The position numbers and the translations under genes are program-made. Below are positions 3,810 to 55,228 of a stretch of DNA of 64,000 nt, one piece after another. This DNA is from Candidatus Methylacidiphilum fumarolicum (GTDB lineage Bacteria; Verrucomicrobiota; Verrucomicrobiia; Methylacidiphilales; Methylacidiphilaceae). Location: assembly GCF_949774925.1 (NCBI RefSeq), contig NZ_OX458932.1, positions 1,550,001-1,614,000 of the forward strand, written 5' to 3'. Position 1 is the stretch's first letter. Every line of letters starts with the position of its first letter. The notes beneath the pieces are model-generated. The model was not told the origin of the DNA, did not search any database, and was given only the letters and a program-made list of their open reading frames with translations.

Positions 3810-4136
3810 ATAAAGTAGAGCTTGATTATAACAAGCACAGGAGCTTTCACGAATTTTTTCGATCCTCTTCGAGTACGTCTTGATCCTCTTTTTCCTATCC
3901 GATTAGATTGGACTTCTACTTTCTTCTTTCAATGCCCACCTAGCCAAGGAATGAGAGATTGATCCTTAAAGGAGATGATAGCTTTTCGCTACAGCCAAAT
4001 CGAGCCTATTTGCAGTTTCAGATAGAGAATACCAAAGAAAGATTTTTGGATGTAGAGATTCCAAAAGGCTTAATTTAAAACAGTTAGGGCAAAGGAAAAG
4101 AGATAGACAGCCGATTTTCCAATGCCTTATTGGTTC
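3810..4136. other. Intergenic region between convergent genes
   Basis: A 327-bp stretch between the 3' ends of glcF and the sigma-54 regulator. I see no open frame with family character, no tRNA and no convincing stem with a T-run. It may hold transcription ends that I cannot identify by eye. Confidence 0.4.
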
Positions 4137-6113
4137 TTATGAATGAAACTTTTTAAGGTTTCTATAGAGAGTACTCCGATGTACACCTAATAGCTTTGCA
4201 GCTTTACTTGCATTTCCTCCCGTTTTTTCCAATGCAGAAAAAAATAGCTCTTTTTTATATTTTTTGAAATAAAGAGGCGTTGTCTCAACAGTGGAGTTCA
4301 TCTCGTTGAGGGTCTGTTTGTCTAGCAATTGTCCTTCTTCATTTTCCTTTCTTGTATTGTGCAAAATGGAAAGAAGGTCTACTGGCTTAATCATTTTGCT
4401 TTGAAGGTTTTTAGCAATTAGCCTAAAAGCAACATTTTTCAACTCCCTTACATTTCCAGGCCAGGAATAATTGTAAAGGATCGGTAAAATTTCATCCCAA
4501 TCAATAGAGGGATAAAATTTCAATTTCGCAGAGATCTGTTCAATGAAATAAATGAAGAGCAATTCTATATCCTTGCCTCTTTCACGTAACGGAGGAAGAT
4601 GAATTGGAAAAATGTTTAGCCTATAAAAAAGATCTTGTCTAAATGCACCCTGCAAGCTTAACAGATTAAGATCCTTATTGGTTGCTGCAATAACCCTAAC
4701 ATCAACAGGAATTGGACTTTTTGCACCTATAGGAAAAATTTCAAACTCTTCAAGGACTCTAAGCAGAGTCCCTTGAATTTCGAGTGGAAGTTCCCCAATT
4801 TCATCTAAGAAAATAGTACCATTATTAGCTAGAAGAAATTTCCCCTTTCTCCCTTCTTTCGAGGAACCAGTAAAAGTTCCACCTTCAAATCCAAAGAGTT
4901 CACTGACCACCAGTTCCTTTGGAATAGCAGCACAATTGATTGCTAAAAAGGTTTCTTTTGCTCTTCGACTATTTTGGTGGATAAACTTGGCAAATATTTC
5001 TTTTCCGGTACCCGTTTCGCCTAACAGGAGAACAGGCAAATCATTTTGAGCGGCAATTTTTGCTTCTTCCATTGCAGATACAAAAGCAGGGGATTTGCCA
5101 ATAATCAAATCAGGCGAATGCGAAACAGACGTTTCAGAGGAAGATTTTTGAGACTTAAACAAAAAACAAGAAAAATTCAAGGAGTCTGAACCTACGGGAG
5201 CTGAAACATAACTATTGGAAAGTTCTATTATATAACCAATAATTCTGTTTTCACGGACAATAGGCTCAATCAGAGCGGGAACAACCATCTTTCCAAGAAC
5301 AATATCTGATTCAAAAATCTGAGGCTGATCATAAGAAATTCTAGGCCTATTCCTTATGGACACAAAATCCAATTTTGTGACCTGGAACTCTGCCAGGATT
5401 TCTTTTGGACAATGTAATATTGTTCCTAGAGAATCAATCAATAAAAAGGGAAACGTACTGTATAAGCCCTTTTTTTCTACAAATTTGTTATAAAGATAAA
5501 CTCTATCTGTATAAAGAATCGCTGTCAGTTTGGTTTCTATAAGAAAGCTGTTAGTTATGGCTATACTAATTGGGATGGGCTTGTGAGCAAGATCTCCAAT
5601 CATAGTTAAAGCCATGAATAGATCCTTGGATTCAGGTTTGTGAATGATTGCAGAGGTGCACCAGATGTCATGAAGGGAAGCGCAATAATGTTCTGGACCT
5701 ATGACTGAAATAGGCTTTTTTTCTTCAATTGCTGCCCCAATGGCAGAACATCCGCAGTATTTTTCACTCCAATTAGCTCCAATAACTAACTTGTAAAAAT
5801 TCGCTTTTTCTAATAATCTTTCCGGTCCATCGACAAAGGTAACCACTCCTTCAGAATTGACAATGGCTATGAGACAATCAAAATCAAGCGCTTGCATTCG
5901 CAGCAGGGGAAATAAGGGTTGGAGAAAAGAAAAAGAATCTAACTCTAAGTTAAGTTTCTCTTCTTTTGAAGAAAGGAGAACTGGGGCATGTTTTTCTCTA
6001 TCAATGCCGTATTTTTTGCATCTTTCCCAGCTTTTTAAAATTTCATCTCTCACCCTAGGTTGTGTTGCATTTCCCAAGGTAAATCTCTCCCATTCCTGAA
6101 TGATGTCCGTCAT
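4137..6113 (-). CDS. Sigma-54-dependent AcoR-type transcriptional activator
   Basis: Bacterial enhancer-binding protein that activates sigma-54 promoters in response to a small ligand. The N terminus has the AcoR/DhaR/MimR-like signature (EILKSWERCKKYGID), followed by a GAF-type sensory region. The AAA+ domain has Walker A GETGTGKE and Walker B GTIFLDEIGELP. The C-terminal Fis-type helix-turn-helix is KTGGNASKAAKLLGVHRSTL. The sigma-54 contact loop reads GTFTGS instead of GAFTGA, which is unusual. At 658 residues the length is normal. It converges on the glcDF cluster and is a plausible regulator of it by proximity only; no -24/-12 promoter was recognised here. Confidence 0.88.
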   Translation of the reverse strand: MTDIIQEWERFTLGNATQPRVRDEILKSWERCKKYGIDREKHAPVLLSSKEEKLNLELDSFSFLQPLFPLLRMQALDFDCLIAIVNSEGVVTFVDGPERLLEKANFYKLVIGANWSEKYCGCSAIGAAIEEKKPISVIGPEHYCASLHDIWCTSAIIHKPESKDLFMALTMIGDLAHKPIPISIAITNSFLIETKLTAILYTDRVYLYNKFVEKKGLYSTFPFLLIDSLGTILHCPKEILAEFQVTKLDFVSIRNRPRISYDQPQIFESDIVLGKMVVPALIEPIVRENRIIGYIIELSNSYVSAPVGSDSLNFSCFLFKSQKSSSETSVSHSPDLIIGKSPAFVSAMEEAKIAAQNDLPVLLLGETGTGKEIFAKFIHQNSRRAKETFLAINCAAIPKELVVSELFGFEGGTFTGSSKEGRKGKFLLANNGTIFLDEIGELPLEIQGTLLRVLEEFEIFPIGAKSPIPVDVRVIAATNKDLNLLSLQGAFRQDLFYRLNIFPIHLPPLRERGKDIELLFIYFIEQISAKLKFYPSIDWDEILPILYNYSWPGNVRELKNVAFRLIAKNLQSKMIKPVDLLSILHNTRKENEEGQLLDKQTLNEMNSTVETTPLYFKKYKKELFFSALEKTGGNASKAAKLLGVHRSTLYRNLKKFHS

Positions 6114-7948: not shown

Positions 7949-9022
7949 CTAGTCAGGATGCGGAGAAAATGCTTGTTCTACCATCAATTTCATCCATATT
8001 TTCCGATGGGGAGCTGGTAGCGGTAAAAAGGAGATTTTCTCTTTTTTAATCCACTCTCCCTGCGAAAGATTAGGTTGGACGAGCTTTTCTTGCTTCCAGT
8101 CTGCTTCGCACACCTCAAGGAAAATCTTATATCTAGAGAGATAGGCAGGCAGAGAAAAAAGAATGGTTTTTTGTTCCATAGCAAAAGGATCGAAATTTGG
8201 AAATAACCACATGCCTTGGTACCTCCCTGTCTTGGAGTTTGCTTGATGTAACCAGATAGAATCTTCTTTTCTAAGAATCGCAATCTTTTCTTTTCTCACT
8301 TCGATTCTTTTTTTCGGCTTGAAAGGCAGCAGCTCGGGCTGTTCAGCTTGACAAATTTCTTTTAAAGGACAAATCATACATTTTGGAGCAAGAGGTTTGC
8401 ATACTGCTCGACCAAAATCCATTAGTGCCGAATTGAAAAGAGAAAAATCATTATCCTCTGAAAGGAGATTCATAGCTATCCTGGAAAGCTCCTTCAACGC
8501 CCCTGCTTTGTTAATCGGCTGATGAATCGATAAAAGCCTAACCAATACACGGATGCCATTAGCGTCAAGCGCCACCGTTTTTTTCCCGAAGGCAAGGCTT
8601 GCAATCGCATTGGCCGTATAGAGCCCTATACCAGGCAATTTTAAAAGCTCTGTAGGTTCCGATGGCAATATTCCCTTTTTTTCAAAGAAAACAATTGCTG
8701 CTATCTTATGGAGATTTCTTGCCCTTGCATAATATCCCAACCCTTCCCATGCCTTTAGAACCTCTCCTTCAGAAGCATTGGCAAGCTTTTCCCAATCTCC
8801 AAATCTTTCCATCCATTTTAAATAGTAAGCAATAACAGTCTTTGCTTGAGTTTGTTGCAACATAAATTCGGAAACGACGATAGCATAAGGATCTTTGGCT
8901 TGCCGCCATGGATAAGAATAAGCATTCGCTTCATACCATTCAAAAAGTCTCCTTGGAAAACTTTCTCTGAATTTTGCATCGATTCTTTCTAGCCAAAAAG
9001 CTATATTATTACCATTTTCCAT
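7949..9022 (-). CDS. mutY: A/G-specific adenine DNA glycosylase MutY (intact copy)
   Basis: Removes adenine mispaired with 8-oxoguanine. The N-terminal HhH-GPD domain has SEFMLQQTQ with the catalytic Glu, and the LPGIGLYTANAIASLAFG hairpin followed by VALDANG with the catalytic Asp. The 4Fe-4S loop is C-x6-C-x2-C-x5-C (CKPLAPKCMICPLKEIC). The C-terminal third is the NUDIX-like 8-oxoG recognition domain. I chose the ATG at 9022 because a GAAGAAGGAG Shine-Dalgarno lies just upstream; a GTG at 9046 would add 8 residues. The ATG overlaps the rnhC ATG on the other strand in one CATG. The N-terminal two thirds are duplicated at 17.4-18.1 kb. Confidence 0.92.
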   Translation of the reverse strand: MENGNNIAFWLERIDAKFRESFPRRLFEWYEANAYSYPWRQAKDPYAIVVSEFMLQQTQAKTVIAYYLKWMERFGDWEKLANASEGEVLKAWEGLGYYARARNLHKIAAIVFFEKKGILPSEPTELLKLPGIGLYTANAIASLAFGKKTVALDANGIRVLVRLLSIHQPINKAGALKELSRIAMNLLSEDNDFSLFNSALMDFGRAVCKPLAPKCMICPLKEICQAEQPELLPFKPKKRIEVRKEKIAILRKEDSIWLHQANSKTGRYQGMWLFPNFDPFAMEQKTILFSLPAYLSRYKIFLEVCEADWKQEKLVQPNLSQGEWIKKEKISFLPLPAPHRKIWMKLMVEQAFSPHPD

Positions 9023-9685
9023 GACTCCTTCTTCTTTTACATTCACTCTGAGCGATAAACAAATTGAAAAACTTAAAGCATTCTTAGATCAAAAAGGCTT
9101 TGAGTTCTCCACTATTGATCATGGGCTATTTAGAGCCAAATCAAAAGGGGTAGTGGTACAGGTCTATAAATCGGGTAAGGTGCTCGTACAGGGTAAAGAA
9201 GCCCTGGAATTTTCCCGCAACGTGATAGAACCTGAAATTCTCCAACAAGCTGCTATTGGCTATGAGTTCCTGACCCATCCCGAATATTTCGAAGCGCATG
9301 TCGGAATTGATGAATGCGGCAAAGGAGATCTGTTTGGACCTCTGGTAATTGCCGCTGTTTTTGTTGACCCACAATCCGCAAAGGACTTCACCGAAATGGG
9401 GATCAAAGACAGCAAACGGATCTCAAGCATAAGACGGTTAAACCAACTTGCCTCAGCAATAAAGAAAAAAACCAAGTACGCCCTCTTATCGCTTCCCCCT
9501 TTACGATATAATGAACTGTACGAAAAAAAATTCAAAAATCTCAATTTGCTTTTGGCTTGGGCACATGCTTGGGTTTATAAAAAACCCTCCTTGGAACTCA
9601 ACGATGCCCCAAGGGTACTCTGTGATAGGTTTGCTCAACCGTGGGTCCTTCAACAATCTTTTAAAAGGATCGGAGCGGATCAATT
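8332..9685. repeat. 1,354-bp direct repeat, left copy (mutY 5' part / rnhC 5' part)
   Basis: This segment recurs at 17379-18732 in the same orientation. The offset is constant at 9,047 bp, and I saw only two substitutions (8664 versus 17711 and 9586 versus 18633). It begins inside the mutY coding region and ends inside rnhC. Outside these limits the two loci share nothing. The pair brackets a 7.7-kb island. Confidence 0.95.
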
Positions 9686-9722: not shown

Positions 9723-10438
9723 AAACGAAACGGCAATCACACTGTGCTACCGTGATGGGACCTTCTTTATGCATGGCGTCATCAAAACCAAAAGTCAGAC
9801 ACCGACAGGTCATAACCGATTAGTATTGATCTCGGCTTGAACAATATCTCTACCACCCCAATGGTCTGTGCTACTCTGGCCGCAAGGCCCGACATATTTG
9901 ATGTGGCTACTGGAAATGGAGGAGTCCATCCAGACCAAAGACACGAAAGGTATTCGGCGCACCCTAAAACGGCTCGAGTGGCCGTGAATACCGCTGGATG
10001 AGGGACATCAACCACCCCATCCGTCAGCGCGTCGTCGATAGTCTCAAGTCAAGCAGCTCCTCGTCTTCGAGGCTTGAGGCACATTCGCAATTGTCTCAAG
10101 ACCAACAAAAGCAGGCGCTGCGAGCAGCACTCCTGGAGTTCGGTCATCTGTTTTTGTTCTGCCGCTTCAAGGCGGCAGAACGAGCCGTCTCCGTCGTCCA
10201 GACGGACCAGCGCAATACCAGGCGCAAGTGTCTCTGGTGCAGATGTGTCGAGAAGGACAATCGAAATGGGCACCTGTTCTGCTTTGTCTTTTGTGGCTAC
10301 TGTCAGAACACCGACAGCAATGCCGTTTTCAATTTCTCGATGGCTACTCGAACTGTCGCAATAGGCTGTTCGTTATGTAGCCTCAAAGCCTTGCACCCGA
10401 CCCTGCCGTGGCGCCAAGGACAAGCTCGCGGCTTCTAG
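9690..10438 (+). pseudogene. tnpB: Decayed TnpB (IS200/IS605-type OrfB) remnant
   Basis: Pieces of a TnpB nuclease can be read in several frames in the right order. First comes a strand segment ETAITLCYRDGTFFMHG, then the RuvC-I motif IDLGLNNI near 9818. REYRWMRDINHPI lies near 9990. The C-terminal zinc ribbon (KCLWCRC, then FCGYCQNTDSNA) with the last RuvC Asp lies near 10230-10330. The N-terminal third is missing because the element is cut off at the repeat junction, and stop codons and frameshifts interrupt the rest. It marks the left edge of the inserted island. Confidence 0.75.
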
Positions 10439-10686
10439 CCGCAAGTTTATGACAAAAAACCTTCCCCTTCATCACCTCCTCAACTGAAAAAAGCGCTTGA
10501 AGCCTTTTATAGCATCGTAGGGACATACCGAGAATAAAAGAATAGTGTTATAGTTCGAATTCGATTAAGTGGATAGCTGTATTATTAGAAATTATTGAAC
10601 AAAAGAAAAGAGAATGGCCCCCCAATGCATGCAACTTATTAATGGAAAAGCATAAATTTTTAATAATCAAACAAAGAAGCAGCATC

Positions 10687-11442
10687 CTATAGTTCATCTA
10701 ACTTTTTTAAAAGCTTCTCTTTTGATAAAACAATAATCCTTTTAGTTTCGTTCCGGATTAATTGTTCGTTGGTTAGTTTAGCAAGAATTCTTGAAAGGGT
10801 TTCAGATGTAATGCCTAACTCTGCAGCTATGATTTTCTTGGGGAGCAAAAGGGGAACAATAGCCGATGAAAGATGATCGTCATGAAAATGCTTATGGATC
10901 CATTGAATAAAACGGGTTTCAGCATCTTTCACTGAAAGACTATCTAGTTTATCAACAAGTTTGCGCAAATGATTGCTCATGGAACCAATGATGCGTAAGG
11001 CGATCTCTGGCCGGTTCCGAATCAGGTTAAGAAAATCCGTTTTAGTAATCAATAAAACTTGACTCGATATGACAGCTTTTGCATTAGCAGGATAACCATC
11101 TGAAACAAGGCAGGCTTCTGCAAAGGATTCCGGAGGATAGAAGATGTGAATTGGTTGTTCTTTCCCTTCTGATGTTAACCTATAGACCATTATTGAACCG
11201 CAGATCATAATATAAAATCCAAGAACTGGCTGTTTTTCTCTGAAAAGTATTTGGTCTTTTTCCAAGAAAACCAATTGAGTACATGGGACAAGTTTCTGAA
11301 TTTCCTCTAGAGAAAGGCTTGAAAAAATTCGACTGCGCCTCAATACCCCCTCAATAACAACAGATCTAGCTTTGGAACAGAACTGTTTCTTTTCCATCTT
11401 CATAAAAAAATAGGGAAGAGCCTCTAACACAGATTGAATCAA
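10687..11442 (-). CDS. Crp/Fnr-family transcription regulator, Dnr-like
   Basis: A 251-residue regulator with an N-terminal cyclic-nucleotide-binding fold (FYIMICGSIMVYRLTSEGKE) and a C-terminal winged helix (KKIIAAELGITSETLSRIL). The ETLSR recognition helix carries the E-x3-R pattern that reads TTGAT-type half sites. The N terminus lacks the cysteine cluster of oxygen-sensing FNR, and the sequence around HIFYPPESFAEACLV resembles Dnr/NnrR proteins, which respond to NO or low oxygen. It is divergent from the ba3-type oxidase operon, with an FNR/Dnr box between them, and is therefore its likely regulator. Confidence 0.85.
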   Translation of the reverse strand: MIQSVLEALPYFFMKMEKKQFCSKARSVVIEGVLRRSRIFSSLSLEEIQKLVPCTQLVFLEKDQILFREKQPVLGFYIMICGSIMVYRLTSEGKEQPIHIFYPPESFAEACLVSDGYPANAKAVISSQVLLITKTDFLNLIRNRPEIALRIIGSMSNHLRKLVDKLDSLSVKDAETRFIQWIHKHFHDDHLSSAIVPLLLPKKIIAAELGITSETLSRILAKLTNEQLIRNETKRIIVLSKEKLLKKLDEL

Positions 11443-11546
11443 ACGTTACGACCATAAAAAAGTTTTAATCCTAAATGTGCTTCCAGTTATCTGCTAGAAA
11501 CGTAACGAAAAAAAGTGGATATCAAAATATAAAAAATGAAGATTCT

Positions 11547-11560
11547 TTGATCTAGATCAA
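11547..11560 (+). promoter_or_regulatory. FNR/Dnr-type operator TTGAT-N4-ATCAA
   Basis: The site reads TTGATCTAGATCAA, a perfect palindrome that matches the FNR/Dnr consensus at all ten defined positions. It lies between the Crp/Fnr regulator (start at 11442) and the oxidase operon (first ATG at 11602). Its centre (11553.5) is 41.5 bp upstream of the start point predicted from the -10 hexamer at 11583, the classical class II activator position. The match is seen in the sequence; regulation is inferred. Confidence 0.85.
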
Positions 11561-11582
11561 AGAAAAATGGAAAGCTATCGAC

Positions 11583-11588
11583 TAAACT
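11583..11588 (+). promoter_or_regulatory. Probable -10 element of the ba3-type oxidase operon
   Basis: TAAACT lies where a sigma-70 -10 hexamer should be if the FNR/Dnr box is a class II activator site. It implies a start point near 11595, only 7 nt before the first ATG at 11602, so the message would be almost leaderless. No separate -35 is expected at such promoters. Confidence 0.5.
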
Positions 11589-11601
11589 ACAAGAATAGAA
11601 A

Positions 11602-11748
11602 ATGCAGCAGTTAAGAAAAACAAATGACAAAGAAGATTTCCCCCCGCCAAAAGGAACTTTTTTATTCTTGTTAGGGTATTTAGCGGCAGGAATGCTCCTT
11701 TGGTTTCTTTTTTACTGGATGCTTATTGGAGGAATGAATAATGGATAG
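11602..11748 (+). CDS. Small ba3-type cytochrome oxidase subunit IIa-like protein
   Basis: A 48-residue protein with one membrane helix. A polar start leads into PPPKGTFLFLLGYLAAG, then a hydrophobic stretch through FYWML. The PxGT-F entry to a single helix is typical of the CoxIIa subunit of ba3-type oxidases. Its last 8 bases overlap the start of the CuA subunit gene, which indicates translational coupling. There is no clear Shine-Dalgarno before the ATG, in line with the predicted near-leaderless transcript. Confidence 0.7.
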   Translation: MQQLRKTNDKEDFPPPKGTFLFLLGYLAAGMLLWFLFYWMLIGGMNNG

Positions 11749-12223
11749 ACTTGAAAGAATTTATCTTTGGATTGCGACAGTCATGTTAGGAATTTTTATG
11801 CTGGCTATCATTTACTCGACCTTGGTTTTATCAATTCAAATTCCATCAGATAAAGGACAAATTATCGTCAAACCGAGAGAATCATTAGTCCAATCCGTTT
11901 TTAAAACACCCCCTTTTGATCATCCTGGCTTATACAAAATAGGAGAAAAAGAATACGAGCTTGTCATCGTTGCTCAAGCTTGGGCATTTAATCCGACGAA
12001 TATAGAGATTCCAATAAATTCCCTTGTCAGAATAAAGGCTACCTCTTTGGACTTGCAGCATGGCTTTTATATCGCTGCTACCCCTGTCAATATCATGCTG
12101 ATTCCAGGAGAAATCTCTGTAACCAGCTACAAATTTAAAAAAGCTGGAAGCTATCGAATCATTTGTAATGAATACTGCGGAATGCTTCACCATGCGATGA
12201 CAGGAATCATTTTGGTAAAATAA
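11741..12223 (+). CDS. cbaB: ba3-type cytochrome c oxidase subunit II (CuA)
   Basis: Electron-entry subunit of a heme-copper oxidase. At 160 residues it is short, as in ba3-type enzymes: one N-terminal membrane helix (residues about 10-32) and a periplasmic cupredoxin domain. The binuclear CuA ligands are visible as a distal His in DLQHGFYI and the cluster CNEYCGMLHHAM (Cys, Glu carbonyl, Cys, His, Met). It overlaps the small subunit gene upstream and is followed after 1 bp by subunit I. Confidence 0.93.
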   Translation: MDRLERIYLWIATVMLGIFMLAIIYSTLVLSIQIPSDKGQIIVKPRESLVQSVFKTPPFDHPGLYKIGEKEYELVIVAQAWAFNPTNIEIPINSLVRIKATSLDLQHGFYIAATPVNIMLIPGEISVTSYKFKKAGSYRIICNEYCGMLHHAMTGIILVK

Positions 12224-12224
12224 A

Positions 12225-13910
12225 ATGAAAACAACGTTAATAATTAATTCTTCAGTTGTTCAAAATCCATTGTCTTTTGAGTTTTGTGAAACCGATCGAA
12301 AATTGATTCTAGGAATGATTCTTGTTGGATTTGGATCTTTAGCTCTAGGTGTATTTTTGGGGCTTCTTCAGGCTTTTAATTATGCAGGTGTGGGACTCTA
12401 TCAATTCCTTCCTGGATTAAAAAGTTATTATCATGGGCTCACCTTACATGGAGTACTCAATGGTTTTGTTTTTCCATTCGCAGCTTCAAACGGTTTTCTA
12501 TCTTTAACAACAATTCGCAGCTTAGGTTTAAGGATGCCATCCTCTCTCCTCCTTTTCAGTCTTTTGAGCCTATTTTTGGGAACTGCACTTTCAATTTACG
12601 GCATATTATTTGGAAATTCTGCAGTCCTCTACACTTTTTATGTTCCGATGAGAGCCCACTGGAGTTTTTATTTAGGGATTGCCTTTTTGGTTGTTAGTAC
12701 ATGGGCCATTTCTCTGGCACAGCTAATAACTTTAAGAAAGTGGAAAAAGAATCATCCAACGGACCGTATTCCGCTGCTTGCCTATGCTTCCATTCTTACC
12801 TATATCATGTGGGATATTTCTTCTATTGGAGCAACTGTTGAAGACCTCTTTTTTTTGCTCCCTTGGTCTTTAAACCTTCTTCCAGGATCGGATGCTACAC
12901 TCACAAGGACTTTATTTTGGTTCACTGGACATCCTATTGTCTATTTTTGGCTTTTGCCTGTGTATGTTTCCTGGTATTTCTGCCTTCCAGCACAGGTGGG
13001 AGGAAAAGTATTTAGCGACCAGATGGTTCGCAGTGTGTTTGTAGCATTTTTAATCCTTGTGCCTGTTGGTTTTCATCATCAATATTCAGATCCTGGTATT
13101 GGGTTGTTTTATAAATGGGCAGCTGCAGTTTTGACTTTTGGGATTGCTTTTCCAAGCTTAGTCACAGCTTTTTCTGTTGTTTACAGCCTAGAAATTGGTG
13201 GCTTATCTCGAGGAGGAAAAGGAATTTTTGGATGGGTAAAACGGTTACCATGGAAAGATCCTTCGGTTTGTGCTCAAATTTTGGCGGGGATAGCTTTTCT
13301 TCCGGGCGGTATGACTGGGATCATGCATGCAAGCGTCAATATGGATCTCTTGTTGCATAATACTTCTTTTCTTCCGGGCCATTTCCACCTAACAGTAGGC
13401 GCGGCTGTGGCTCTCTCATTAGTTGGTATTGCTTATTGGCTTGTGCCTTATTTATTAAGAAAAAAACTTTGGGGTTCTTCCATTGCGCGATGGCAGCCAT
13501 GGATCTACTTTGTTGGAGTTCTTGTTTTTTCATCGGGACAAATGAGCGGGGGAGTCCTTGGGATGCCCAGACGCACAGCTCTTGCACTCATCCCATATGA
13601 GCCACTTCCAGGATGGAAAATTGCAGGGATCTTAACAGCTGTAGGTGGAAGTCTTATGTTTTTGAGTTTTCTAATTTTTTTCCTTGTTATGGTTATGACT
13701 ATTTTTTTTGGTCAAAAAGAAAGAGAACCAGTAGATATTCCTCTGGGACAAGTGATACATGGGCCATCCCTAAATGGTCCTCAACTAATTTTTGATAAGA
13801 TCAGTTATTGGGTGCTGCTCTGTTTTGCTCTTATTGCTTTTCTTTATGGTCCATTTTTGATTACTCATCTCCCTCCTAAATTCATTTGTCTACCGTTCCA
13901 GGGATTTTAA
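12225..13910 (+). CDS. cbaA: ba3-type heme-copper cytochrome c oxidase subunit I
   Basis: Catalytic subunit that reduces O2 to water. It has 561 residues with about 12-13 membrane helices. The heme and copper ligands can be placed: HGLTLHGVLNGF near residues 70-80, the CuB His and cross-linked Tyr in TGHPIVYFW, the two further CuB His in GFHHQYSDPG, and the heme ligands in LPGHFHLTVG. The order and loops follow the B-type (ba3) oxidases, which have high O2 affinity, rather than aa3 or cbb3. No assembly factors or cytochrome c genes are adjacent. Confidence 0.93.
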   Translation: MKTTLIINSSVVQNPLSFEFCETDRKLILGMILVGFGSLALGVFLGLLQAFNYAGVGLYQFLPGLKSYYHGLTLHGVLNGFVFPFAASNGFLSLTTIRSLGLRMPSSLLLFSLLSLFLGTALSIYGILFGNSAVLYTFYVPMRAHWSFYLGIAFLVVSTWAISLAQLITLRKWKKNHPTDRIPLLAYASILTYIMWDISSIGATVEDLFFLLPWSLNLLPGSDATLTRTLFWFTGHPIVYFWLLPVYVSWYFCLPAQVGGKVFSDQMVRSVFVAFLILVPVGFHHQYSDPGIGLFYKWAAAVLTFGIAFPSLVTAFSVVYSLEIGGLSRGGKGIFGWVKRLPWKDPSVCAQILAGIAFLPGGMTGIMHASVNMDLLLHNTSFLPGHFHLTVGAAVALSLVGIAYWLVPYLLRKKLWGSSIARWQPWIYFVGVLVFSSGQMSGGVLGMPRRTALALIPYEPLPGWKIAGILTAVGGSLMFLSFLIFFLVMVMTIFFGQKEREPVDIPLGQVIHGPSLNGPQLIFDKISYWVLLCFALIAFLYGPFLITHLPPKFICLPFQGF

Positions 13911-14173
13911 AAAAAGCGAAAGAAAAGCCTTTTAAATTTTGTGCCGGTGGGAAGAGTAGAACTCAGACCGGTTGCCAAGACCAGATTTTTAGTCTATGCA
14001 ATACAAGAGAGACACGTCCTTTATAACCCACATACAACTCAAATAAGCTTGAGGGGTGACGCTGCGCGCATCCATCAAGCACTGGTTTGAGTAAGAACGT
14101 TCAACGGACTTCTGAGGGCTAATAATGGAGCAACTGAGAGAGAATCCGTGTCTTCGCGCGTTATTGCGAAGAT
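13911..14173. other. Short decayed stretch after the oxidase operon
   Basis: There is no credible gene here. The sequence changes from A+T-rich to visibly G+C-richer around 13940-14060, at the start of the decayed integrase region. Confidence 0.4.
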
Positions 14174-17089: not shown

Positions 17090-17378
17090 CTAAGGTTGGA
17101 GCCTTTTCGGTTTCCCTGATTTCTCTAGGATTTCCTTCAAAAACGATGTTTCTCCATTCCAAGAGCAGCAATCGGTCTGCGAGCTTCTCAACATCGGCCA
17201 TCGAATAAGAGGCGCCAGGATGGTCTTGACTTCCTCTTGTTCCGTACGCAGAAGGTCTTTGAGCCAGATAGAAGCGATCGGGTCCACACCAGCGGTCGAT
17301 TCATCCAAAAGGAGAATGGGGCTGGAAAACATAAGAGCGAGGCTGCAAGCAACCTTGGCCCGGGTCTCCTAGGCAGCT
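17090..17378 (-). pseudogene. ABC transporter ATP-binding protein fragment
   Basis: The minus strand reads RAKVACSLALMFSSPILLLD, then ESTAGVDPIASIWLKDLL, which is the post-signature, Walker B and D-loop region of an ABC ATPase (NosF/CcmA-like). Walker A and the signature are missing because the fragment is cut at 17378 by the duplicated mutY segment. The usual LDEPT has become LDEST, and the frame is broken downstream. Together with 16525-17080 it is the relic of an exporter operon. Confidence 0.7.
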
Positions 17379-18069
17379 GCTCGGGCTGTTCAGCTTGACA
17401 AATTTCTTTTAAAGGACAAATCATACATTTTGGAGCAAGAGGTTTGCATACTGCTCGACCAAAATCCATTAGTGCCGAATTGAAAAGAGAAAAATCATTA
17501 TCCTCTGAAAGGAGATTCATAGCTATCCTGGAAAGCTCCTTCAACGCCCCTGCTTTGTTAATCGGCTGATGAATCGATAAAAGCCTAACCAATACACGGA
17601 TGCCATTAGCGTCAAGCGCCACCGTTTTTTTCCCGAAGGCAAGGCTTGCAATCGCATTGGCCGTATAGAGCCCTATACCAGGCAATTTTAAAAGCTCTGT
17701 AGGTTCCGATAGCAATATTCCCTTTTTTTCAAAGAAAACAATTGCTGCTATCTTATGGAGATTTCTTGCCCTTGCATAATATCCCAACCCTTCCCATGCC
17801 TTTAGAACCTCTCCTTCAGAAGCATTGGCAAGCTTTTCCCAATCTCCAAATCTTTCCATCCATTTTAAATAGTAAGCAATAACAGTCTTTGCTTGAGTTT
17901 GTTGCAACATAAATTCGGAAACGACGATAGCATAAGGATCTTTGGCTTGCCGCCATGGATAAGAATAAGCATTCGCTTCATACCATTCAAAAAGTCTCCT
18001 TGGAAAACTTTCTCTGAATTTTGCATCGATTCTTTCTAGCCAAAAAGCTATATTATTACCATTTTCCAT
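17379..18069 (-). pseudogene. mutY: mutY, 3'-truncated copy fused to foreign DNA
   Basis: This copy keeps the HhH-GPD glycosylase domain and the whole 4Fe-4S cysteine loop. It ends just after CQAEQPE, where the sequence enters the ABC ATPase relic out of frame; the frame continues to a stop at 17188. The 8-oxoG recognition domain is absent. One visible change from the intact copy is Leu for Pro before SEPTE. The start region, including the shared CATG with rnhC, is the same as in the left copy, so it may still be expressed as a truncated glycosylase. Confidence 0.85.
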
Positions 18070-18732
18070 GACTCCTTCTTCTTTTACATTCACTCTGAGC
18101 GATAAACAAATTGAAAAACTTAAAGCATTCTTAGATCAAAAAGGCTTTGAGTTCTCCACTATTGATCATGGGCTATTTAGAGCCAAATCAAAAGGGGTAG
18201 TGGTACAGGTCTATAAATCGGGTAAGGTGCTCGTACAGGGTAAAGAAGCCCTGGAATTTTCCCGCAACGTGATAGAACCTGAAATTCTCCAACAAGCTGC
18301 TATTGGCTATGAGTTCCTGACCCATCCCGAATATTTCGAAGCGCATGTCGGAATTGATGAATGCGGCAAAGGAGATCTGTTTGGACCTCTGGTAATTGCC
18401 GCTGTTTTTGTTGACCCACAATCCGCAAAGGACTTCACCGAAATGGGGATCAAAGACAGCAAACGGATCTCAAGCATAAGACGGTTAAACCAACTTGCCT
18501 CAGCAATAAAGAAAAAAACCAAGTACGCCCTCTTATCGCTTCCCCCTTTACGATATAATGAACTGTACGAAAAAAAATTCAAAAATCTCAATTTGCTTTT
18601 GGCTTGGGCACATGCTTGGGTTTATAAAAAACTCTCCTTGGAACTCAACGATGCCCCAAGGGTACTCTGTGATAGGTTTGCTCAACCGTGGGTCCTTCAA
18701 CAATCTTTTAAAAGGATCGGAGCGGATCAATT
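17379..18732. repeat. 1,354-bp direct repeat, right copy
   Basis: Partner of 8332-9685, in the same orientation and with two visible substitutions. Here the left border cuts the mutY coding region and the right border leads into the intact 3' part of rnhC. Recombination between the copies would delete 9,047 bp and leave one intact mutY and one intact rnhC. Confidence 0.95.
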
Positions 18733-50377: not shown

Positions 50378-53080
50378 TTAGAATTTATAGGCAACTGTTC
50401 CTTCAATCCAGAATGGCCAACCAGCAATAATGCTGCTCATATTGAAAGCACGCGAACCTGCCGATCCAAGACCAAAAGGCAACCAGTACTTTTCATCTGT
50501 AAAGTTATACAGATAAAGCCTTGCCTCCCACTTAGGTTGCGTATAAAAGATCTGAGCATTTAATATAAACTGTGTTGGAATTTTTGTATTATAGAAATAA
50601 TTTAGGTATTGATCACTCATTACTATGGCCCCAAGAGTTACTCCAAGGCCAACGTCAGAGGTATAAGTTACTGTACCGCTAAAATACTGGTCAGGAAATC
50701 CAATAAAAGGATAATTGGAAGAAGGCATCGCACCAGAGATAGGAAAGGGTCCATTGACGAATGGTCCTCCGGCTATAGGCACACCAGTATAATAAGGCAG
50801 TATAGGTGTTAGCTGCCTCATTCCAGGCCCATGGAGTCCTGGAGGAAAACTCGACCATTCCTCAACCGCTCTCATGTAAATGTAGCCCAACCTTGCCCAA
50901 AAATGGCGATCAGGCTGATAAGAAGCATTTATTTCAAAACCTTCTACATTTGTAGGGGTAGCTGGCAAAGGCGCTCCATTAGGCAAAAACCCTAAATTAT
51001 TGAGGATCTGATTTTGAGTAAAAGCAGCAGTGGTGATATACATCTTGTCTTTAAGAATGTTAAACTTCACGCCTCCTTCTATCAGCTGGTTTACTTCGCT
51101 AAAAGAATTTGGTTGGAACGTTGGAGCATATCCTCCAATGACCGCAGCATTAGTAGTCTGAAGCCAGTTAAAATCAAAATAGGCGGTCATCCATGGAAAG
51201 GGTTTATAGACCGGGCTTATGTTTACAAGAGGAGCAAAAGCCGCTGTGCTAAAGTGTGCAAACGGAGCTCCCACTGGTCCAGGAGGCGTGGAAGCATCAA
51301 CAAAGTAAAAATTTGCTCTCGCTCCAAATAGCAGGCTAAACTTGCTTGTCCAATCAATGTTATGCTGATAAAAGGGATTGACCGTCCAATAATTACAATC
51401 CGTAGTTCCACCAGGGCCATTTAAAGGTTCATAAAACCATCCAGGAGGAGCTCCAGGAATCTGCCATTCCCCACCCGCAGGTCCTTTCGGATTATTAACA
51501 GCTTTTGCAAAGGGAGCTAAAAAGACTGCGTTCCAACTATAGGGATTGGTTGTCATCATGCTCCAGACATTTCCTGCATTCCAAAAAGCATCCCCAAAAT
51601 AGTCAAGGTTTCTCTGATAATGCCATTCAATGCCCGCATCAATGTTATGCCGCATTAACATTTCCCCGATTGCCCCCTCCCAAAAGGATTTTTTAACCTC
51701 TTCATCCCCTTCGCTTTTGGAGGTTTCTTTATACTCCTTCATTTCTTTTGACCCCTTCTCAGGAGCAGCAGCTTCTAAGGGAGTGTCAAAATTAACTCTT
51801 ATTTCTGTTCTGTTATCCACTTCATAATCCCCTGAGAGATAAGCAGCCACATACAACGAAGGTTCGATCCAGGAGCTACGCGTATACCAAGCAAAAGTAT
51901 TGTTCACAATCTCAATATTATCTGAAACCTTTACCCGTTGGATAAGCTGAAGCATTCCAGTCATCGCATTGCCCCCGCCTGCAGGATTCACAATATCAGC
52001 CCTTCTGTTTACAGGTACAAAAAATGGACTGGTCAAGGTTCCAGCCAGGGCTCCAGGAGGAAGCATTCCAGCTGTATACAGTCCGTTATCGATGAGGGCA
52101 TTAGTTGGCCTGTTGATTTGATCAGCTAACTGTGGCATAAAGGAATAGGTCCCAAAATCAGCATAAAAATCGACGGTATAATTCTCGTAAGGTTTGGCTC
52201 CAATTGCCGCATAGAAATTCTGCTGATTGTTGTAAATGTTGTTATAATAACTACCCTGTTCTTGCCCCATATAGCTAAAACGCCAGGCCACTTTATCATT
52301 GACTGGACCTCCAACATCAGCCCCCCAAAGATATTGGCTGTACATGCCAGTGGTATCCCATATATATCCTCTAAACTTGTCAAAATAGGGCTGTTTGGTA
52401 ATATAGTTCACACTACCAGGAGTAGGCTGTGTAGCTCCAAAAACCGCATTGGCAGGTCCTTCGGTAATGTCCATTGATTCCACCATATTCCAGCTAAAAG
52501 GAACTCCAGCCATGGAATCGTTTTGAAGAGTCATTTCAATTCCATTTATATAGGGAAGCGCTTGCCTTCCTCGAATGGTGATCGCATTTCCCATCCCCCA
52601 GTTGAGTTCTGTATAAGCTGTCGGAAGAATCTGAGAAACGCTCAGGGGATCAAGATAGCCCTGATAAACCGTTCCGGCAGCTTTTAGCATGGTAGGATTA
52701 ACAGGAGTCACTTGCCTGGGTGTATCCATTACGCTCATGGGGATCCCATAAGTAGAGGACACAGGACCTTGTTCGGTTGGAAGAACCGCTGCATTCGGAG
52801 CACCAAAGGTTTCCACGGCACTTGGGGGAGTCTCTGTTTGTACAGTCACCTCTGGCATCGTTATCCTGCCGCTAGCCGATTCCCTTTGATTATAAACTGG
52901 TATGTAATTTTGTTTGGATTTTTGCTTCCCAGAATGATTTTCTCCGTTGTACTGGGAATCAGATGACGGATTATTAGTAGTAGTAACATCCTCATCATCA
53001 AGACCAAAAAGATTGAGGTTAGTAAACAATAAGACCATCAAGAAAAGTATTATCCAACTTTTTTTCCTCTTTTTAATCAT
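50378..53080 (-). CDS. TonB-dependent outer-membrane receptor, copy 1
   Basis: Energy-coupled uptake receptor of 900 residues. It has a signal peptide (residues 1-26, KKSWIILFLMVLLFTNLNLF), an N-terminal extension rich in Asn/Ser/Gln, a TonB-box-like PEVTVQTE near 76-83, and a plug domain with AITIRGRQALPYINGIEM (about 166-183) and NYITKQPYFDKFRGY. A barrel of about 600 residues ends in the terminal Phe of EGTVAYKF. A strong AGGAGG precedes the ATG at 53080; another in-frame ATG at 53107 would cover it. Tandem Pho-box repeats lie upstream, so phosphate-starvation control is likely. The substrate is unknown. Confidence 0.92.
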   Translation of the reverse strand: MIKKRKKSWIILFLMVLLFTNLNLFGLDDEDVTTTNNPSSDSQYNGENHSGKQKSKQNYIPVYNQRESASGRITMPEVTVQTETPPSAVETFGAPNAAVLPTEQGPVSSTYGIPMSVMDTPRQVTPVNPTMLKAAGTVYQGYLDPLSVSQILPTAYTELNWGMGNAITIRGRQALPYINGIEMTLQNDSMAGVPFSWNMVESMDITEGPANAVFGATQPTPGSVNYITKQPYFDKFRGYIWDTTGMYSQYLWGADVGGPVNDKVAWRFSYMGQEQGSYYNNIYNNQQNFYAAIGAKPYENYTVDFYADFGTYSFMPQLADQINRPTNALIDNGLYTAGMLPPGALAGTLTSPFFVPVNRRADIVNPAGGGNAMTGMLQLIQRVKVSDNIEIVNNTFAWYTRSSWIEPSLYVAAYLSGDYEVDNRTEIRVNFDTPLEAAAPEKGSKEMKEYKETSKSEGDEEVKKSFWEGAIGEMLMRHNIDAGIEWHYQRNLDYFGDAFWNAGNVWSMMTTNPYSWNAVFLAPFAKAVNNPKGPAGGEWQIPGAPPGWFYEPLNGPGGTTDCNYWTVNPFYQHNIDWTSKFSLLFGARANFYFVDASTPPGPVGAPFAHFSTAAFAPLVNISPVYKPFPWMTAYFDFNWLQTTNAAVIGGYAPTFQPNSFSEVNQLIEGGVKFNILKDKMYITTAAFTQNQILNNLGFLPNGAPLPATPTNVEGFEINASYQPDRHFWARLGYIYMRAVEEWSSFPPGLHGPGMRQLTPILPYYTGVPIAGGPFVNGPFPISGAMPSSNYPFIGFPDQYFSGTVTYTSDVGLGVTLGAIVMSDQYLNYFYNTKIPTQFILNAQIFYTQPKWEARLYLYNFTDEKYWLPFGLGSAGSRAFNMSSIIAGWPFWIEGTVAYKF

Positions 53081-53171
53081 TTTTCCTCCTAGATTCCTCC
53101 TAGACATTATAACGAAACGAAAACAGTTAAAACACGCCCTCTTGTTTAGCCTAAAAAAAAGACAAAAGGTA

Positions 53172-53377: not shown

Positions 53378-53409
53378 AATTCGTTCTTTTTTAGTTCTTT
53401 TTATCCTAG

Positions 53410-55228
53410 TCCATCTTCCGCAACGTTACATCATAAGTGATTGCAACAGAACGAAATAGATTTTTCGTTCTGCCTACATTGCCCACTTGGGCGGAGAAGC
53501 GAAGAGGGAAAGTAGATCGATCTTTTGCAGCAAGGCATTCAACTCTGGGGGAATCTGAGAGAAGAGCCCGATCAGCGGTTGTCCTTTTAGAGAGAGGTTG
53601 ACCAAGCGGACCGTCTGAAGACGCCGAAGCACCTTTGGCACCTCTTCGGTAAAGCCCTTGGCCGCCCATTCGGCTCCGAGCCGCGCACTTATCCAGAAGG
53701 CCAGGAAGCAGATCCTTACATGGTTGCGGACCCGGTCCGGTCGCCAGTGATAGACGGGACGGACTTCCAGGTAGCTCTTGAGCTCCGAAAAGGCAGCCTC
53801 GACCTCGAGCCAGCTGCTTATAGTGGGTGAGCACCGCCTGGCCCGAAGCCTTGGTCGCAGGGAGATTGGTCTCCAAGAGATACCAGCCGTCAGTCGCCTC
53901 TTCTTCCTTGACCCGCTCCTGATCCAGTTTCCACCAGAACCGGCCGCCTGCGTCGACGCCGTACTGGAAGTATTTGTGCGCTTGAAGCCTCTGCAGCGCT
54001 CGGCCAACCCGGCTGCCGAGATTCACGGGATTCACCTGCCGGCGTGCCGCCTTCGTGATCTGGCGGAGCACCTCTTCTGCTTGGGCAATGCGGTTTTGTC
54101 GCCGTTCGCGGTCCCGCTGAGCCCGCCATTCTCCTCCCGCAATGACATAGCGCACTCCCTCCTGTTCGATCTCCAGTACCCGCGTCCGGTCCGTTAGCCA
54201 GAGCTGCTGGTCTTCGGGCAGACGACTGAGAATCTCCTGAAGCTTGGCCCGAGTCGACCGGGTCACGTACTCCAGCTCCATGCCAGTCAGGATCTCCAAG
54301 TTCCACCAACTCCTCATCCCCCCGTCGAAGACGAAGGTCGCCTCTTGGATCCCAAACCTCCGTCTGAGCGTGACCAAGAGCCCCGTCAAGGTCGTGCGGT
54401 CCGCCCGATTCCCTCTCAGTACTTCCACATGGAACGGAATCCCCCGACCATCCGTAGCTACCGCCAGAAGAACTTGGCGCCGATCCTGCCGGTGATCCCG
54501 ACTATAGCCATATTGCGCCAGTCCCTCAGGGCCCTCCCCTTCGAAGTAAACGCTCGATAGATCGTAGAGCACCAGGCTCGCCCCCTGCGGCTGACTCCCT
54601 TGGTAAAGCTTCTTCTCAATCCCGCTCCAACAGCCATTCAACTCATCCATCGCCCGGTAGAGCTCGTCCTCATCCAGATCCTTCTCTTCGAGCCCACAAG
54701 CCTTGGCCAGAAGAGTCCCCCGCGCTTCCTCCCGAAGCGCCAGCTTCGAGGAAGGAAAGAGAATCCGGCTAAAAATCATCGCCTTCAAAAGCCTTCGTTT
54801 CCGCTCCGAGCCAACACTGGCAAAGACTTCATCGAGGCCAAAGCGACCCCAGGCTTCTTCGAGAACGGCCAATCCTCCATAATCAAGTGCCTCCTGGGCT
54901 TCGAGCCCCTCTACAGGGACAAGACGCTTCTTTTGCAAGGCCGCCGCCAGCACTTCCCGAGCTTCTTCCGGCAACCGGGTCACGTTGGCGATCCGGCGTG
55001 TCTTCACCTGCTTCCCCACCCGGTAGGACTCTCGGACAATATAGGATCGATAGATCTTCCCTTTGTGGCGTGTGCGGACCTCCTGCAAGTAAATGCCTAC
55101 CAGGCTAACATTTTTCCACTACGATGCCTAAAAAATAATAAAAATATAATAAACTATTGTGTCCTACATGAATTTACATAAGTCATTGATACATCAACAA
55201 AATGGTCAAAAACTTGCGGAAGATGGGA
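53410..55228 (-). mobile_element. IS1634-like insertion sequence (1,819 bp)
   Basis: The ends are near-perfect inverted repeats: the left starts TCCATCTTCCGCAA, and the right, read inward, is TCCCATCTTCCGCAA. Both sides carry TAG (53407-53409 and 55229-55231), a 3-bp target duplication. The empty site is preserved downstream of receptor 1, where the sequence ATCCTAGTTTTAG is uninterrupted (50369-50381). The insertion is 2 bp beyond the stop codon of receptor 2. The element is G+C-rich against its surroundings. Confidence 0.88.
53474..55088 (-). pseudogene. DDE transposase of IS1634-like element, frameshifted
   Basis: DDE_Tnp_1-type transposase. The first Asp lies in LYDLSSVYFEGEGPEGLAQY, the second in ATFVFDGGMRSWWNLEIL. 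The third motif (VEAAFSELKSYLEVRP, with the Glu) is in another frame because of an extra base near 53803; restoring it would give YKQLARVEAAF. Past that point the original frame yields unrelated sequence. The corrected C terminus ends at 53474 (LFASPPKWAM). As written, the enzyme lacks its catalytic Glu. Confidence 0.82.

Follow-up and report, generated by a model that had tools for sequence, protein, structure and literature searches.

The window analysed here is a 64,000-nucleotide stretch, positions 1,550,001-1,614,000 of the 2,476,671-bp genome of Methylacidiphilum fumariolicum SolV (genome G000 of the comparison), a thermophilic and acidophilic methanotroph. It carries a three-gene operon for a ba3-type terminal oxidase (subunits IIa, II and I; hereafter ba3-2), a divergent gene for a Dnr-like Crp/Fnr regulator, and a perfect palindrome between them. 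Judged from sequence comparison, it is modestly probable that these elements constitute a small mobile cassette, a second ba3 oxidase with its private Dnr-type activator, switched by nitric oxide (NO). According to the proposed mechanism, NO would rise chiefly when O2 is low, its sources being nitrite or, by way of hydroxylamine, ammonia. In response, the regulator, acting as a DNR-like haem-dependent NO sensor, would bind the palindrome at 11543-11564 and contact RNA polymerase from the class II position (-41.5), with transcription starting near 11595 and IIa-II-I being made. With other oxidases inhibited, the extra oxidase may then sustain respiration of O2 and perhaps also reduce part of the NO. 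The parts of this proposal differ in strength: control of the ba3-2 operon by the regulator through the box is very likely, a class II start near 11595 is likely, and NO is fairly probable as the main signal. The fullest version, a laterally moving NO-inducible cassette with the oxidase as its sole target, serving NO-tolerant respiration and independently assembled in Rhodothermota, is advanced only tentatively.

The regulator gene occupies 10687-11403 on the minus strand, encoding 238 amino acids (aa) from ATG 11403 with Pfam cNMP_binding and HTH_Crp_2 domains. Its frame stays open to TTG 11442 (10687-11442, minus strand; a 251-aa frame), and ATG 11403 is the likelier start because homology with the ortholog in the related genome G002 begins there. 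On the plus strand follow a IIa-like single-helix protein of 48 aa (11602-11748), the 160-aa CuA subunit II (11741-12223; Pfam COX2) and the 561-aa subunit I (12225-13910; Pfam COX1). Every coordinate in an earlier note on this DNA agreed with the sequence. That note had also placed a perfect TTGATN4ATCAA between the regulator and the operon; the box is present, and it is the core (TTGATCTAGATCAA, 11547-11560) of a longer perfect palindrome of 22 bp (TTCTTTGATCTAGATCAAAGAA, 11543-11564, centre 11553.5). TTGATN4ATCAA occurs once in the window, with 0.25 expected per Markov-1 window. Moreover, the 22-bp palindrome is the longest perfect one in the window, and arms of at least 11 are expected 0.033 times per window, a chance level obtained from 60 simulated windows.

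A -10-like hexamer, TAAACT, stands at 11583-11588 on the plus strand, its first base 29.5 bp from the box centre. The class II geometry claimed in the earlier note holds for this distance, which is exact and conserved; the 41.5 bp to the start point is no independent measurement, being fixed by construction because the +1 position (11595, plus strand) is itself implied from TAAACT. The putative start thus follows from spacing, and the 7-nt leader depends on it, the equivalent in G002 being 11 nt. No -35 match precedes TAAACT (AAGAAA is found there), and neither strand has a sigma-70-type promoter in 11217-11806 according to a consensus scan; over 10500-14100 (3.6 kb) the scan gave 6 sites, against 8.2 in shuffles. 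With both a -35 match and a promoter-like site missing, expression of the operon from this region would depend on an activator.

Stronger evidence than these chance statistics is the conservation of the box and its spacing in G002. Orthologs of the whole unit were found there by tblastn (subunit I 89%, II 89%, IIa 75%, regulator 80%), with the box reading TTGATCCAAATCAA on the operon strand. The box, the following 22 nt and TAAACTA align in register between SolV and G002, and a four-base insertion falls between TAAACTA and the ATG. Identity per 20-bp window amounts to 0.75-0.85 over 11510-11589 and 0.33-0.62 over 11410-11509. Additionally, purifying selection acts on all four cassette genes, the ratio of nonsynonymous to synonymous divergence (dN/dS) being 0.066 for subunit I, 0.083 for II, 0.17 for IIa and 0.118 for the regulator. 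An AT-rich block between the regulator gene and the box (GGATATCAAAA, 11517-11537), which includes an ATCAA half-site, retains about 0.8-0.85 identity to G002 within the otherwise diverged spacer, and it could be a second contact, a divergent start or a regulator-side promoter. This block, together with the documented existence of bidirectional Fnr/Dnr boxes (PMC5398030), lends something to the idea that the box serves the regulator alone, by autoregulation, or acts in repression while the oxidase has another promoter. That idea is nevertheless improbable: the 29.5-bp placement of TAAACT recurs in G002 and in target promoters of the homologs described below, and in 11217-11806 the same consensus scan offers the oxidase no sigma-70-type promoter.

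The regulator appears to have a single target. It is the sole PF13545 match in SolV, that is, the only Crp/Fnr helix-turn-helix (HTH) regulator found; PF00027 has two matches, the second being a 153-aa protein. Genome-wide, SolV has 12 copies of the strict box (reversed control pattern, 2) and G002 has 10; the congeners G001, G003 and G004, which have no regulator, carry 9, 6 and 10, respectively. The other 11 SolV boxes are therefore regarded as background. As a regulon they were rejected, as boxes are equally many in regulator-less genomes and 7 of the 11 lie inside long open reading frames (ORFs); none of the 11 flanks a recognisable respiratory gene. Similarly, none of 10 extra TTGAYN4RTCAA sites in SolV lies at oxidase or nor genes, and no such site, with up to one mismatch, was found upstream of SolV norCB, ba3-1 or two other oxidase stretches. 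Given the single regulator, the background boxes elsewhere and the lack of a box upstream of norCB and ba3-1, the ba3-2 oxidase is the only evident target. Two side observations may be recorded here. The second PF00027 protein (L057:4615-5076, genome about 2387.6 kb), has no match to an HTH domain and is located within an operon resembling that of a [NiFe]-hydrogenase. At genome position 1218296 (L052), TTGATCGAGATCAA lies between gap-like and pgk-like genes, and this 14-mer or its complement occurs once in several Methylacidimicrobium genomes without the SolV-type regulator.

The proposal that the operon has its own Dnr-like regulator was upheld by the Pfam domains, the best structural match and the recognition helix. 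The best PDB match is Pseudomonas aeruginosa DNR (3dkw, E 5.9e-30), the first FNR following at E 6.6e-10, and by sequence the protein is nearer to DNR than to FNR or CRP. Its recognition helix, S-E-T-L-S-R, is of the E-x-x-S-R type, which reads TTGAT, and is paired here with a TTGAT-type box. In the 251-aa frame, cysteines are found at positions 22, 54, 81 and 111; homologs are without them. The cluster cysteine pattern of Escherichia coli FNR (C20, C23, C29 and C122; PMC5398030) is not matched in the regulator, and FNR-type Fe-S sensing was rejected on this ground. Haem-dependent NO sensing, as in DNR, is probably what the protein performs.

Among 13 genomes of the family searched, the regulator is present in SolV and G002 and absent from G001, G003 and G004, as is the ba3-2 oxidase; a single marginal match in G004 (E 2.2e-4) falls within a frame of 803 aa. 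Beyond these, the family genomes contain one homolog, with 39% identity, in the metagenome-assembled genome (MAG) STB_62 (G009). Its helix reads R-E-T-L-S-R, where the arginine has a CRP-like role, and the intergenic site is TGTGACATATTTCACA, found once in 9 kb. The change of helix together with the change of site fits direct reading. Genes for flavohaemoglobin and a globin run divergently to the STB_62 homolog; where the latter faces the flavohaemoglobin gene, a perfect CRP-like TGTGAN6TCACA (L056:1089-1104) replaces TTGATN4ATCAA.

The signal is best approached through more distant relatives. A search of 288 genomes of the phylum gave regulator homologs in 58 at E<=1e-12, SolV and G002 included. 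Of the remaining 56, 20 that include nearly all of the strongest matches were examined with about 12 kb of neighbourhood each, and 7 weaker ones with about 3.6 kb. A Pfam-confirmed NO or nitrous oxide (N2O) gene lies within about 6 kb of the homolog in 10 of the 20 Verrucomicrobiota loci: flavohaemoglobin (Hmp) at L189 and L196; NnrS at L198, L199, L202 and L203, with one further weak match; prismane/Hcp at L204; the NosZ propeller at L186 and L200; and a bacterial globin at L191. DUF2249, which we take to equal COG4309, gave probe matches in 13 of the 20, six of them Pfam-checked, and all loci except L201 (19/20) hold either an NO/N2O gene or a DUF2249 match. The 7 weaker loci showed no NO-gene probe match and no box near the regulator within their 3.6 kb. 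As described for NO-responsive regulons, including that of DNR, hcp, hmp, nnrS and denitrification genes form the core, and DNR-type control of nnrS, hmp and hcp is established (PMC1274295). COG4309 is tied there to nor genes, and on that basis, under the equivalence assumed above, DUF2249 as a merely neutral neighbour was rejected (PMC1274295). Furthermore, the regulator tree places SolV and G002 on a long branch inside the NO-linked Verrucomicrobiota clade (95/93).

The box recurs among these relatives. Eight of the 20 loci have a TTGAYN4RTCAA no more than 250 nt from the regulator domain (8 boxes; 0.62 expected; binomial p 1.9e-6), with 14 occurrences elsewhere in the 227 kb of homolog loci. 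When ten promoters were aligned, the position 22 nt past the box held TAAACT in SolV, G002 and G249 (nnrS), TAAAAT in G150 (hcp), ATAAAT in L095 (a Rhodothermales locus considered below) and TTAAGG in G179, the remaining four scoring 0. At this offset 4 of the 10 match TATAAT in at least 4 of 6 positions, the maximum over offsets 0-59, the next value being 2.

These results bear on the earlier suggestion of a low-O2- or NO-induced operon. The NO side of it is favoured and the O2 side disfavoured, because NO or N2O genes lie near 10 of the 20 relatives and the FNR cysteine pattern is absent. NO should also be at hand in SolV, since norBC is expressed and nirK is raised at low O2 (PMC3404531). 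The competing explanation is that the regulator senses low O2 or redox state and that the cassette is a micro-oxic high-affinity oxidase under FNR/FixK-like logic. In its favour, FNR, Anr and Dnr regulators all use this type of box (PMC5398030), SolV responds strongly to low O2 (PMC3404531), and the four regulator cysteines are conserved between SolV and G002. However, those cysteines are missing from homologs and do not match the four of FNR, the closest solved protein is DNR, and the nearest relatives of the regulator adjoin NO genes, so that sensing of O2 or redox state is considered unlikely.

The operon encodes, by its sequence features, a B-family (ba3) haem-copper oxidase. Subunit I matches Thermus thermophilus ba3 (1xme) at E 1e-118, compared with 4e-11 for the best A-type, and is far from the A and C families; subunit II has 7deg_B as best PDB match, followed by T. 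thermophilus ba3 subunit II. The B-family hallmarks are present, namely the GHPIVY His-Tyr, K-path analog tyrosines and serines, the CuA motif CNEYCGMLHHAM and the IIa subunit, with one hydroxyl residue being Ser instead of Thr. In the oxidase tree, ba3-2 groups with the ba3 genes of Methylacidiphilaceae at a support of 100, the internal order being unresolved. An origin outside the family was rejected on this placement, and ba3-2 is, from the tree, an old in-family paralog.

A second ba3 oxidase is attributed to SolV and to strain Phi in a review (PMC8498564). The published SolV ba3 oxidase (SITO, MFUM_v2_1257-61), a sulfide-insensitive enzyme raised about 5-fold with H2S, has the order transmembrane protein, transmembrane protein, II, I, unknown (PMC10205796). 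The same layout, 84 aa, IIa, II, I and 365 aa, was found at 1.244 Mb (L037). The window operon was thus rejected as the published sulfide-induced oxidase, the published order lying at L037 with a paralogous subunit I 61% identical, and the window operon is not among the H2S-responsive genes of Table 2 of that paper (PMC10205796). Both are of the B family with a IIa-II-I core; unlike ba3-2, SITO has five genes, with an extra first and last gene, lacks a Dnr-like regulator or box, and is present in all congeners.

The earlier suggestion that the unit is mobile gained support from its different, reciprocally empty sites and its low synonymous divergence. SolV/G002 homology is limited to 3.26 kb (10656-13917; 80.6% DNA identity), comprising the regulator, the box and IIa-II-I, and it ends at both borders. 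In G002 the unit stands between an Mpg-like and an L,D-transpeptidase-like gene, names assigned by eye and taken as presumptive, and these two genes are adjacent without the unit in SolV, V4 and Kam1. In SolV the unit is part of a 7.7-kb insert, otherwise made of broken ORFs, that is flanked by direct repeats of 1362 bp from the mutY-rnhC region, the left copy (8324-9685) holding mutY/rnhC 5' parts and the right copy (17371-18732) being 99.8% identical to it. The repeated region is single-copy in Yel (95%) and Kam1 (93%). The proportion of synonymous differences (pS) between SolV and G002 is 0.524 for subunit I, 0.507 for II and 0.551 for the regulator, and 0.685-0.85 for the 17 other ortholog pairs on the genome stretches examined. 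Owing to the different sites, each empty in the other genome, and to a pS below that of all 17 pairs, the unit was shared laterally within the genus after the lineages had split. Thus the cassette is mobile, and its oxidase, as an old in-family paralog, is not foreign to the family.

As for the route, the repeats are arranged as would be expected if a circle had integrated through a single crossover, or if a duplication and an insertion had occurred, and the event looks recent. A degenerate TnpB-like remnant (9998-10438, plus strand; Pfam Cas12f1-like_TNB, E 2.6e-6) lies about 0.2 kb from the unit; no recombinase or element ends were identified at the unit, and weak Pfam matches in the insert (E 0.014-0.017) were taken as chance. 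Plasmid carriage was rejected, as tblastn of subunit I and the regulator against plasmids returned nothing above 60% identity. The direct-repeat insert occurs in SolV alone among the five congeners searched. Elsewhere in the window, two tandem TonB-receptor-like genes (50378-53107 and 55234-57936) share about 97.6% DNA identity, with a transposase-like ORF (53406-55088) between them. The surroundings of the oxidase unit might suggest that the cassette is an unused relic in a scrap region: it is placed among broken ORFs beside a TnpB remnant and between repeats, it is absent from three congeners, and it is not among the tabulated H2S-responsive genes of SolV (PMC10205796). A relic is very improbable, however, as the four genes are intact with dN/dS values of 0.066-0.17 and the box and its spacing are conserved in G002.

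The earlier note had proposed a search for the same regulator-box-operon unit in other genomes, and this returned the unit in G002 and a separate pairing outside the genus. When the best 80 of 180 ba3 loci were screened for a regulator, one alone had a Dnr-like regulator in reach, namely L095 from the Rhodothermales MAG 356-308 (JALSSK010000492.1). At L095:4107-7653, the regulator (4107-4838), TTGACTTTTATCAA at 4852, two small transmembrane genes, II and I follow one another in one direction. Boxes number 6 in 858 kb, with 0.0024 expected in the regulator-operon gap of L095. As in SolV, a regulator with DNR as its best PDB match and a box precede a ba3 operon; in L095, however, the regulator is co-directional and 31% identical, the oxidase is 48% identical and belongs to another clade, and the distance from the box centre to the first ATG is 106.5 bp. 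Because of the low regulator identity and the different oxidase clade, the pairing arose at least twice or moved far, and that of L095 was apparently assembled independently.

Several points weigh against an NO-switched, laterally moving cassette. The neighbourhood count of NO genes (10/20) was made without a random-gene control, and a box near the regulator is missing from 12 of the 20 homolog loci. Summed over the ten promoters, offset 17 scores 24 and offset 22 scores 23, so that the class II signal across these promoters comes from two pairs of related promoters, which make up the four matches. When only four-fold sites are counted, the range of the cassette (0.463-0.535) takes in one comparator value, that of rnhC (0.475). 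With norCB lacking a box, the regulator would respond to NO by raising an oxidase and not the NO reductase. Finally, ba3 oxidases can reduce NO slowly, which counts in favour of the proposal, but the NO-reductase rates reported for haem-copper oxidases are far below those of dedicated NO reductases (PMC8780969).

If the NO-switched cassette is real, it would explain why two ba3 oxidases are retained in SolV, the published one serving under sulfide and the other under NO. The choice of terminal oxidase would be coupled directly to the nitrosative stress that ammonia oxidation causes, and it would follow that an oxidase can spread together with its own sensor. The reading is testable in a cultured strain. 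The open-access literature, in its listings and abstracts, yielded no case of a ba3 oxidase paired with a Dnr-type regulator, and open-access listings and passages on Methylacidiphilum contain no mention of this Dnr-like regulator.

Among known systems, a comparable layout is seen in the single- or few-target NO regulons of Dnr, NnrR and HcpR, which likewise have a divergent Crp/Fnr regulator with one box between (PMC1274295). For instance, cyanobacterial HcpR is described as lying divergently to hcp or norB, where TTGACN4GTCAA is its one site (PMC1274295). The targets of these regulons detoxify NO, whereas that of SolV is a terminal oxidase. A precedent for control of an oxidase by NO is provided by the predicted NsrR-controlled alternative oxidase (Aox) of Vibrio fischeri (PMC1274295). 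Both the regulator family and the oxidase differ from those of SolV in that case. An FNR-type box is also the means by which Anr and FixK control cbb3 oxidases. Likewise, in the FnrL-fixNOQP system such a box drives a high-affinity oxidase (PMC5398030). Anr, FnrL and FixK differ from the SolV arrangement in relying on Fe-S or relay sensing, in acting on a C-family oxidase and in governing a global regulon, whereas the SolV regulator would act on a B-family oxidase as its only evident target.

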